The position numbers and the translations under genes were made by a program. From Planctomycetales bacterium (GTDB taxonomy: Bacteria > Planctomycetota > Planctomycetia > Isosphaerales > Isosphaeraceae), in the NCBI GenBank assembly GCA_027451885.1, contig DAIDHX010000311.1:1-64000 (forward strand): a DNA stretch of 64,000 nt. The letters run 5' to 3'. Position 1 is the first letter of the stretch. Each line of letters starts with the position of its first letter. Below, piece after piece: positions 19,797-23,751 of the stretch. A model generated the notes under the pieces. The model had not been told where the DNA came from and did not search any database. It was given only the letters and a program-made list of their open reading frames with translations.

Positions 19797-21455
19797 TCAG
19801 GGAACGGAGGGTGCGGGGTGCGTCCGCTCTGGCCGCGTCCGTGGGCCGTTCAGGAGCTTTCCGAGCCAGGTATAGCGCACCATGGTCTGGTAGTTCCAGA
19901 GCAGGAACCCGGTTACGCTCGCGGTGATCAGGGCGAACTTCAGCAGAGCGGGGAGCGGCCAGTCGCGCACCAGGTACTGCGCGGCGATGATGAGCGGCAC
20001 ATGGGCAAGGTAGAGCCAGTATGCCGAGTCAGAAAGATAACGCATGGCCGGGCTCTCGACCGGGCAGAGGCGATGGAACAATCCCATGCAGCCGAAGGTC
20101 ATGAGCCAGGGGTAAGCTGCCTGCAAGCCAATGGAAAGGAATCGGTGGATGCGTGGATCGAGCGGGATTCCCGCGATCAGGAGCGTATCCGAGGCTGGGG
20201 CGGCAAGGATCAACGTGAGCGGAAACACAAGCAAAAGTGCCAGGGCCAAAGGCGCCCACCAGCGCTTGCCGACCTGTGCTTCGCGATCGTTGAACTGGTA
20301 ATAGAGTGCGCCGAAGCCGAAGAATATGGAGTAATATGCGAGCACGTGAGGGATGGGTAAGATCCCTGTTGATGTATCTGGGCCGATCAGCCCCGCGCCA
20401 TCGGTGTCCATGCAGGCCTGCGGCAACATTGTGAGTGGAACCAGCCAGAGGTAGCGTGCGGGAGAGATTACAGGCCATGCGGGCAGCCGGATCACGGGCA
20501 GGATTGATGCGAGGGCTGAAACCGCGGCCAGGCCGAGTACGAGCCACCACAGGAACCAGAGAAACCAGAGGTGGCTGAAGAGCGGGATCTGCATCAGGAG
20601 GTCCGTGACGCCGGCCTTCTTACCTTCGATTGCGCCGTTCTGGCTGAGCAGATCGACGATCGCGGCCTTACGTGCGGCAAGGCCGTCCTCGGTCACGGGC
20701 AATTTGAGGTACCGAGCGAAGTAGACGGTTGTGCCGGGGTCGATCTTTGCATTTGTGAGCGGTGTTTCGCCGCGATGGTTTGGTGCGTTGAGGTTGGCGC
20801 CATGTTCGATCAGAGCGGTCACGACTTCGGTGTTGCCGAGAAAAGTGGCGGCGTGGAGCGGCGTGCCGCCGTCGCTGGCGGCCGCATTGACGTTCGCGCC
20901 GCGCTCGATGAGCAACCGGGCCGCCGCGGCCTGATTGCCAATCGCGGCGTGATGCAGCGGCGTGAGGGTAAGCGCTCCGCCGGCTCCGTTCACCGCCGCG
21001 CCAAGGCCCAGGTGCCGTTCGATGGCGGCGACGTCCCCCGCTTGCGACGCGCTCCAGATGGTCGCGGAGGGGTCGGATTCAGAAGCCGCGTTCCTGGCCG
21101 CGGATTCGATCGCGAGGCTGGAGACGCCGTTCGTCAACGGAATGATCGTGAACAGGCCCAGCAGCAGCGGCACCAACACCCTCTTGAAGCGGTGCCCGAC
21201 GAGCGCGCGACGCCCGCGACGCGCGAGGAGCATCGCGCTAAAAAAACCGCTCATCACAAAGAAAAGAGGCATTCGAAAGCCATGGATCGCCGAGAACAGC
21301 ACCCCAAATCCCGGGCTCTGCCGGGAGTCTGAGACCACCCAGAACGCGGGAAAAAAGGAGAGTGCGGCATGGAGGGCGATCCCCAGCAGCATGGCAGACG
21401 CACGCAGGGCGTCGAGGTCGGAACGGCGGGGAACGGGCGTGCTTTCAGTGCTCAT
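19797..21455 (-). CDS. Acyltransferase-3 membrane protein with inserted ankyrin repeats
   Basis: 552 residues. Residues 1-115 are the start of an acyltransferase-3/MdoC-like membrane protein: LDALRASAMLLGIALHAAL with the conserved His near 29, and FRMPLFFVMSGFF. Residues about 132-278 are ankyrin repeats (TPLHHAAIGNQAAAARLLI, GGTPLHAATFLGNTEVVTAL, RGETPLTNA). From about 285 the membrane domain resumes with LFSHLWFLWFLWWL and further helices to the end, including AYWLYLAHVPLIIAAQYLV. The ankyrin block thus sits in a loop between predicted helices 3 and 4 of one continuous frame. The family transfers acyl or succinyl groups to envelope glycans or lipids. If the N-terminus is cytoplasmic, the loop faces the periplasm. 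The function of the insert is unknown. Confidence 0.82.
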   Translation of the reverse strand: MSTESTPVPRRSDLDALRASAMLLGIALHAALSFFPAFWVVSDSRQSPGFGVLFSAIHGFRMPLFFVMSGFFSAMLLARRGRRALVGHRFKRVLVPLLLGLFTIIPLTNGVSSLAIESAARNAASESDPSATIWSASQAGDVAAIERHLGLGAAVNGAGGALTLTPLHHAAIGNQAAAARLLIERGANVNAAASDGGTPLHAATFLGNTEVVTALIEHGANLNAPNHRGETPLTNAKIDPGTTVYFARYLKLPVTEDGLAARKAAIVDLLSQNGAIEGKKAGVTDLLMQIPLFSHLWFLWFLWWLVLGLAAVSALASILPVIRLPAWPVISPARYLWLVPLTMLPQACMDTDGAGLIGPDTSTGILPIPHVLAYYSIFFGFGALYYQFNDREAQVGKRWWAPLALALLLVFPLTLILAAPASDTLLIAGIPLDPRIHRFLSIGLQAAYPWLMTFGCMGLFHRLCPVESPAMRYLSDSAYWLYLAHVPLIIAAQYLVRDWPLPALLKFALITASVTGFLLWNYQTMVRYTWLGKLLNGPRTRPERTHPAPSVP

Positions 21456-21588
21456 GCGAAGAGTTTCGCTCGGTCGTGCGGGTTATTGAACAGGCTGCCC
21501 TGGAATCGCGACAAGTTTGTTTAATCTTTCTCCGCTGTTGTGTAGGCTGAGAGCCTTCTTCGGAACCGGTCGTTGCAGAGGACGAACC

Positions 21589-23751
21589 ATGTTTGAGATT
21601 CAACACATGACGCAATTTGGGTGTGTCAGGCAACCGCGCTTTCCTGGGATCGGAATTCTGGCGGCGGCTCTCCTTGTTGCTTCGGCTGTTTCAGCCAGGG
21701 CGGACGAGGAACCTGCGCGTGACTCGGCGACGGACAAGACGCTGGTCGCGTGGGTTGCGCCCGCGAACCTGGCGCAGCGGGGCGGCAGTGTGCTTACGAT
21801 CCAGAGCGGCGACCGATTCGACGCGATCGTGTTCGGCGAGCGGGCGCGCGGCAAGTGGATGGCCGGCAGCGAATTCTTCCGTCGCACGCAGGAGAACCAG
21901 GACGAGAATCCCGCGGAGACGGCGGGGCCAGGGGAGCTCGTGCAGGTGGCGATCGTCCACGCGAAGGACGAGGTTCGCATTTACCGCAACGGATCGCTTT
22001 ATGCGTCGTATCGAACCAACCCGATGGACCTCACGAGCGAAGCACACGCGATTGTGGTCTTCGGTCTGCGCCACGTGGGTGCGGGCGATGGTGCGTACTT
22101 TGCGGGCTCGATCGACGACGCGCGGATCTACCGCCAGGCGCTCACGCAGGATCAGTTGCGCGCGCTTCAGCCGAACCAGCCTTCGGAGATCTTGCCGCTC
22201 GCGTGGTGGGATTTCGAGCACGGCTCGGCGGCGGACCGCACGGGATATTTCGCCCATCGCGCAACGGGTGGTAAGGCGAAGGTGGCGAACGGCCGACTCC
22301 AGCTCGACGGCCAGGGATATTTGATCGCCGCGCGAACGGAGACCGAGCTTGAACGTGTGAAGGTCGCTGCGCCCCTGTATCGCCCTGACGGGCCGTATGT
22401 TCCCGACCAGCCGCGCTGGCCCGCCCCCGCGCCAGGAAACTGGGTGACCTATCACCTTGCCCATCCGGGGCCTGGGATCGCCGTGCCAGGTGATCCCAAC
22501 TGCATCTTCGATCACAAGGGGAAGGTGCACCTGCACTATATCTACCGCAACGCGTGGGGCTTCGCGTTCGCACACGTCTCAAGCGACGACATGGTCCACT
22601 GGCGCTGGCACAAGACAGCGCTTTCGCCGGCGACCACCGGCCACGGCATGTTCAGCGGCACAGGGTTTTACACAAAGGACGGCCGGCCCGCGATCATCTA
22701 TCACGGCCAGGGCCTGGGCCGAAACGTGATCCAGTACGCGGCCGATGACGCCTTCGAGTCATGGACAAAGCCCGAGCAGGTCGTGCCCCGGAACCCCGAC
22801 GGCACCGAGCCTCAGATCCGCCACTGGGACCCCGATTGCTGGATCCGGGACGGCGTCTATTACGCGCTCAGCGGCGGGCAAAATCCCCAGCTCATGAAGT
22901 CCGCGGATCTCAAGAACTGGAGCTACCTGGGGGATCTCTTGCATCCCGCGTACCCGGCGAACCTGGGGATTCGAAAGGATGAAGATATCTCATGTGCGAA
23001 CATGTTCCCAATTGGGAACGAGTGGATGCTCCTGTGTATCAGCCATCCCCGGGGCGCACGCTATTATCTGGGCGGCTTCAAGGATGAGAAGTTTCTGCCG
23101 CGTATGCATGCGATGCTGAGTTTTGGCGGCAACCAGTTCTTCGCTCCCGAGTCGGTGCTCACGCGGGATGGCCGGCGGGTGATGTGGGCGTGGCTCCTGA
23201 ACATGCCGATCGAGCCCTCGGGCGTGCAATCGCTTCCGCGCGAGCTCGAGCTTCCCAGGGATGGTGTGTTGCGCATCCGCCCGCTGCGTGAACTTGCCAA
23301 TCTGCGGTCTGACGGCAATTGGCGCGAGGGCCTGGTGGTCAAGGAAGGCACGCGTCTGGAGGTGCCCGAGGCCGAGGGGGACGCCTTCGAGCTCGAGATT
23401 ACGGTCGCTGGCCCCGTGCCGCCCGAGTTCGGCGTGTCGCTGCTCGGCGATGCGCGCGGCCAGGGGGGCATGAACATCATTGCGGGCACGGGCCGAAACT
23501 CGCTTGTGGTCGGTACGACCGAGGCGCCCTTCACGCTTGAAGCGGGCGAGGAGTTGAGGCTGCGCATCTTTGTCGACAAGAACCTGGTGGAAGTGTTTGC
23601 CAATGACCGCCAGGCCGCCGTCTTCGCGGTGAAGTCCGCGCGGCCCACGCCCCGGGTTGCATTCCATGCAAAGGCGGGTGATGCGCGGGTAAAAGCGCTC
23701 AAGACCTGGCGGCTCAGATCGATCTATCGGGACGATCGAGCGGGGGAATGA
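21589..23751 (+). CDS. Exported GH32-like glycosidase with LamG-type N-terminus
   Basis: 720 residues from ATG 21589, chosen for AGAGGA six bases upstream. A signal peptide (GILAAALLVASAVSARA) is followed by a concanavalin/LamG-like domain (about 45-230, ending GSIDDARIYRQALTQDQL) and a five-bladed GH32-type domain (about 285-560) plus a beta-sandwich C-terminus (LRIFVDKNLVEVFANDRQ, typical of GH32). The nucleophile region is GDPNCIFDHKG (D302) and the transition-state Asp lies in HWDPDCW (D414). The usual acid/base Glu-Cys is replaced by S468-C469 in EDISCANMF. It probably acts on fructan- or arabinan-like sugars outside the cytoplasm, but activity is uncertain. It is divergent from the acyltransferase gene. 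Confidence 0.8.
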   Translation: MFEIQHMTQFGCVRQPRFPGIGILAAALLVASAVSARADEEPARDSATDKTLVAWVAPANLAQRGGSVLTIQSGDRFDAIVFGERARGKWMAGSEFFRRTQENQDENPAETAGPGELVQVAIVHAKDEVRIYRNGSLYASYRTNPMDLTSEAHAIVVFGLRHVGAGDGAYFAGSIDDARIYRQALTQDQLRALQPNQPSEILPLAWWDFEHGSAADRTGYFAHRATGGKAKVANGRLQLDGQGYLIAARTETELERVKVAAPLYRPDGPYVPDQPRWPAPAPGNWVTYHLAHPGPGIAVPGDPNCIFDHKGKVHLHYIYRNAWGFAFAHVSSDDMVHWRWHKTALSPATTGHGMFSGTGFYTKDGRPAIIYHGQGLGRNVIQYAADDAFESWTKPEQVVPRNPDGTEPQIRHWDPDCWIRDGVYYALSGGQNPQLMKSADLKNWSYLGDLLHPAYPANLGIRKDEDISCANMFPIGNEWMLLCISHPRGARYYLGGFKDEKFLPRMHAMLSFGGNQFFAPESVLTRDGRRVMWAWLLNMPIEPSGVQSLPRELELPRDGVLRIRPLRELANLRSDGNWREGLVVKEGTRLEVPEAEGDAFELEITVAGPVPPEFGVSLLGDARGQGGMNIIAGTGRNSLVVGTTEAPFTLEAGEELRLRIFVDKNLVEVFANDRQAAVFAVKSARPTPRVAFHAKAGDARVKALKTWRLRSIYRDDRAGE

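Follow-up and report, generated by a model that had tools for sequence, protein, structure and literature searches.

An ankyrin insert splits an AT3 (AT3/TmAT) core between its third and fourth transmembrane helices in the protein encoded at 19797-21455 on the minus strand of the 64-kb window, the window being the whole stretch of DNA that was analysed. The gene is a single uninterrupted ORF with an ATG start, 552 aa long. Pfam places Acyl_transf_3 (PF01757; E=2.3e-27, 96.3 bits against a cut-off of 31) in two stretches that represent both halves of the profile, and these sandwich a match to Ank_2 at residues 136-225 (E=6e-14), all of them above curated cut-offs. An AlphaFold model that drew on 48 homologues is confident along the whole chain (mean pLDDT 92.2; pTM 0.89, the one measure on which the relative placement of module and core rests), and its secondary structure puts the insert between core helices 3 and 4, before HLWFLWFLWW. 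The sequence-only reading had described two intact AT3 halves with ankyrin repeats between these helices and had proposed modelling the insert together with the membrane core; the description holds. The parts of the gene are as follows.

19797..21455, minus strand: AT3-Ank-AT3 membrane acyltransferase ORF, 552 aa (ORF, Pfam, conservation in 53 homologues, AlphaFold model)
21354..21422, minus strand: TM1, residues 12-34, with the DxxRx10H motif D15-R18-H29 (helix in the model; residues invariant in 53 homologues)
21216..21275, minus strand: TM2, residues 61-80, FRMPLFFVMSGFF (homologue alignment and model)
21123..21191, minus strand: R89xxR92 and TM3, residues 89-111 (R89 and R92 invariant)
20601..21122, minus strand: entire predicted periplasmic insert, loop 3-4, residues 112-285 (length against Ank-less sisters; Cys-poor, acidic)
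20628..21065, minus strand: residues 131-276, the ankyrin module, in which a modified last repeat follows three canonical ones (Pfam Ank_2, alignment, model, dN/dS)
20682..20747, minus strand: residues 237-258, an additional helical stretch (helix 240-249) that interrupts the last repeat (model and alignment; also in exported non-AT3 proteins)
20508..20576, minus strand: TM4, residues 294-316, HLWFLWFLWWL (L296-W300 and L302 invariant; helix in the model)
19878..20456, minus strand: rest of the AT3 core, TM5-TM10, residues 334-526 (Pfam, homologues, model)

It might be suspected that such an arrangement arose by chance, as an assembly chimera, or from a separate ankyrin gene wrongly annotated as part of the enzyme. 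These explanations can be ruled out, because 53 homologues, gathered by searches of relatives and of genome contigs, have 150 or more inserted residues at the identical place, and all 48 that were scanned with Pfam match both PF01757 and an ankyrin family. The homologue alignment has an effective number of sequences of about 26. The same insertion had been worth seeking in other planctomycetes; it was found there and beyond them, in five phyla as assigned by record titles (Planctomycetota, Verrucomicrobiota, Acidobacteriota, Poribacteria and Omnitrophota). Paludisphaera soli and Thalassoglobus neptunius are among the carriers that have been cultured. One close homologue (L007 / L048, contig C132 of G005) matches residues 185-551 only, the N-terminal half being missing from its open frame.

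The core itself has the marks of its family. Ten transmembrane helices are predicted from the AlphaFold model and the charge pattern, and D15, R18 and H29 (DxxRx10H) as well as R89 and R92 (RxxR) are invariant across the 53 homologues. The former is the named AT3/TmAT motif (PMC12423673), and the equivalent of the latter is essential in OafA (PMC7448272). Its family and motif predict a membrane enzyme that acylates sugars on the outside of the cell membrane. For the ankyrin-free sister L074 the model is confident as well (pLDDT 91.6, pTM 0.91). Human HGSNAT makes up most of the named entries among its top fold matches to solved structures, at E-values no better than 0.3; weak as they are, these matches would be consistent with the TmAT superfamily (PMC12423673). 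Foldseek with the full model returned ankyrin proteins only among the 50 best matches listed.

The insert replaces a short loop. Residues 113-285 amount to 173 residues, against 23 and 41 in L068 and L074, the two closest ankyrin-free relatives, and TM3 runs on in the model as a helix to about residue 125 (helix 104-125) that leads into the module. Both the Pfam Ank families and the model show canonical tandem repeats with the helix-loop-helix fold, and in Foldseek the module matches DARPins, several of them at about 2 A over ~145 columns. A plain Ank block would be a little smaller than this ankyrin part, whose last repeat carries an extra helical insertion of ~22 residues, with the signature D-x3-T-x3-A-x2-L-x-L followed by a G/R-R/K element. 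Inserts across the family are acidic and poor in cysteine (26 Cys in 11003 residues, against 192 in 19974 elsewhere). Duplication of the whole module inside the loop is clear in L062/L063/L065, L105 and L143, and L072/L075 hold a partial second copy. An ankyrin-free AT3 relative (L027, contig C126 of G003) has a Pro/Gly-rich stretch of ~75 residues in the same loop.

The insert is predicted to face the periplasm, as the sequence-only reading had supposed on the condition of a cytoplasmic N-terminus. In a loop tally that itself assumes the N-terminus to be inside, the family-mean K+R is ~14 over six presumed cytoplasmic loops (N, 2-3, 4-5, 6-7, 8-9 and C) and ~2.4 over the four other outside loops, the insert loop not being counted among these four. 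In published AT3 models and experiments, too, loop 3-4 is periplasmic and lies over the acyl-CoA pore, which it caps in models of OafB (PMC9833829), and the module recurs in exported proteins, as set out below.

The AT3-Ank fusion is widespread but patchy. It occurs in ~15 of 392 genomes drawn evenly across the phylum, and in 11 of the 37 genomes searched from the family of the source organism. In a tree of the core only, the carriers and two non-carriers (L068 and L074) form one group with support of 100/99, outside which the ankyrin-free AT3 proteins fall. This topology suggests one gain of the module and two losses, although a tree with all ankyrin carriers constrained together is not rejected (AU p=0.058) and the losses are not significant. 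The tree of the module leaves the order of its capture by different hosts unresolved. Several AT3-Ank paralogues can share one genome, as on contigs C115, C41 and C167 of G013, where two lie adjacent on C115.

The module is a distinctive unit that also occurs outside AT3 proteins. A search with a module-only profile gave near full-length matches in four sulfatases with signal-peptide-like N-termini (L110, L169, L170, L171) and in four large beta-propeller proteins of planctomycetes that end in the module (L167, L168, L174, L175), CxxCH motifs having been read directly in L168 only, the N-terminus of which is cut by a contig end. On the sulfatases the module stands at the C-terminus in one or two copies (L110:961-3441, minus strand, and the other three). 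Smaller hosts are L172, a module protein of 184 aa anchored by an N-terminal hydrophobic segment; L173 (3985-5289, minus strand, contig C135 of G013), which has two modules and one TM segment besides a short N-terminal domain and which we take to resemble an anti-sigma factor, an identity that Pfam did not confirm; and L049 (3929-4477, plus strand), a lipoprotein of 182 aa that consists of the module only and lies directly upstream of an Omnitrophota AT3-Ank gene. The divergent gene beyond L049 is presumably an alpha-L-fucosidase. With signal peptides judged by eye and hydropathy, every non-AT3 protein that has a near full-length module and an intact N-terminus looks exported or membrane-anchored. 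Partial matches that lack the modified last repeat include signal-less proteins (e.g. L140 and L147), as would be expected of ankyrins in general. These observations point to a defined periplasmic ankyrin variant common to several exported enzymes. A broader and frankly tentative idea is that the helix-bearing module may serve planctomycetes and their relatives as an all-purpose docking domain in the periplasm. It would have passed among acyltransferases, sulfatases, propeller proteins of the haem type, lipoproteins and a regulator-like protein anchored in the membrane, and these hosts would gather on one shared periplasmic partner or scaffold; the module might then supply the partner docking that AT3-only enzymes are suspected to need.

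For the enzyme itself, we consider it somewhat favored, with a probability of roughly 0.55, that the insert is a built-in docking platform on the periplasmic side, placed where the acyl-transfer pore opens, and brings in either a partner or the acceptor. In this view cytoplasmic acyl-CoA would donate the acyl group, which an inner-membrane AT3/TmAT O-acyltransferase would pass through its 10-helix core to an extracytoplasmic acceptor; the ankyrin module, standing over the periplasmic pore mouth where a short loop 3-4 is usual, would hold a periplasmic partner protein or the acceptor beside the catalytic histidine. A partner-docking element fits in loop 3-4 because that loop caps the pore and, in enzymes of the OafA/OafB type, shows co-variation with the SGNH domain (PMC9833829, PMC7448272). 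The low dN/dS of the module and its duplication as a whole inside the loop speak for functional constraint. The module is probably a periplasmic docking part because the same block recurs both across several phyla of relatives and in exported proteins of other kinds; it would not be required for AT3 activity in general, because L068 and L074 have an intact core without it. Recruitment of a partner or glycan substrate, as proposed from the sequence, stands as the best available inference; among close relatives no ligand, partner gene or conserved neighbourhood was found, and the flanks examined show no neighbour family that is widely shared. Whether AT3-only enzymes need a partner, and how the acceptor meets the acyl group, are stated to be open questions (PMC9833829, PMC9558356), and an AT3 family that carries a repeat module in precisely that loop offers a handle for finding a partner.

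Other functions can be imagined for a domain so placed. The module could be a gate or lid that moves over loop 3-4 and controls whether acyl-CoA or acceptor can reach the pore, with no separate partner, given that it replaces a loop that moves in OafB simulations (PMC9833829) and that TM3 continues as a helix into it. Its presence at the ends of unrelated exported proteins and in a stand-alone lipoprotein, where there is no pore, favors a binding role, and we regard gating as rather unlikely. Acceptors of AT3 enzymes are extracytoplasmic glycans, and the sulfatases among the other carriers often act on sulfated glycans, so that the module might itself be a carbohydrate-binding ankyrin that holds the acceptor directly; against this somewhat less likely proposal, the CxxCH propeller and the stand-alone module proteins have no evident glycan link, and ankyrin repeats generally bind proteins. 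That the insert is a tolerated structural decoration of no specific function would accord with its absence from two close relatives with intact cores and with a sequence less conserved than that of the AT3 core, but dN/dS of 0.05-0.25 in twelve close homologue pairs shows that the module evolves under purifying selection, and neither its fixed position in five phyla nor its conserved residues beyond the general ankyrin consensus (e.g. F205 and the extra helix) would be expected of an ornament; this explanation seems decidedly improbable.

Two further readings have little to recommend them. An inverted topology, with the ankyrins facing the cytoplasm, draws on the general expectation that most bacterial ankyrins are cytoplasmic, and is made very improbable by the charge distribution, the published AT3 topology and the exported relatives of the module. 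Least credible of all is that the protein is simply an OpgC/MdoC glucan succinyltransferase of the usual sort to which an ornament has been added. The best NCBIfam model is indeed MdoC (PRK03854), which matches both halves of the core, but at 135 bits the score is far below the curated cut-off of 338, and MdoG (PF04349) was absent from this genome and from the 36 other genomes searched in its family, under a search that found it in the E. coli control. The canonical glucan succinylation pathway is thus not supported, because the MdoC cut-off is missed and MdoG is lacking from the genome and the searched family; the ankyrin insert sets the protein apart from MdoC/OpgC as well.

Comparison with better known systems locates the protein as a new form of a known kind of enzyme. 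With AT3-only enzymes (PF01757/TmAT) it shares the ten-helix core, DxxRx10H in TM1, RxxR before TM3 and an N-in topology, whereas the ~150-residue ankyrin module in loop 3-4 sets it apart from them, the AT3-only and AT3-SGNH architectures of PMC9558356 and PMC7448272 having no such module. Like the AT3-SGNH enzymes OafA, OafB and OatA it has an extra extracytoplasmic domain on the acceptor side of the core; theirs is a C-terminal hydrolase-fold domain after TM11, whereas here a repeat domain sits inside loop 3-4, and neither Pfam nor the model gives an SGNH domain or a TM11 in this protein, which ends shortly after TM10. HGSNAT, the top though weak fold match of the ankyrin-free sister core, also has an extra domain on the acceptor side, but its luminal domain is unrelated to ankyrin. 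Reviews and structure papers on AT3 cover the AT3-only and AT3-SGNH forms and do not mention ankyrins (PMC9833829, PMC9558356, PMC12423673, PMC7448272), and literature searches, in which subscription papers were thinly covered, returned no description of an AT3-Ank-AT3 architecture. Ankyrin repeats at work in the periplasm do have precedent in the AnkB type of Pseudomonas aeruginosa, which promotes enzyme activity there (cited in PMC10294975); AnkB is a separate protein acting on catalase, whereas the present module is inside the enzyme. The first description of the place as unusual for ankyrins needs adjusting to that extent. Because the AT3 literature searched contains no ankyrin form, while periplasmic ankyrin proteins are already known, it is the AT3 enzyme with an ankyrin module in its loop that is new, as far as these sources extend.

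Some features of the neighbourhood may be recorded. The divergent neighbour in the window (21517-23751, plus strand) encodes a glycoside hydrolase of family 32 that also carries a Laminin_G_3 domain. Ten loci, mostly of the Pirellula group, have two recurring neighbour clusters, typed in L053 as a histidine kinase and a response regulator. This pair recurs upstream of AT3-Ank in L053, L054, L056, L057, L058, L060, L061, L069, L070 and others.
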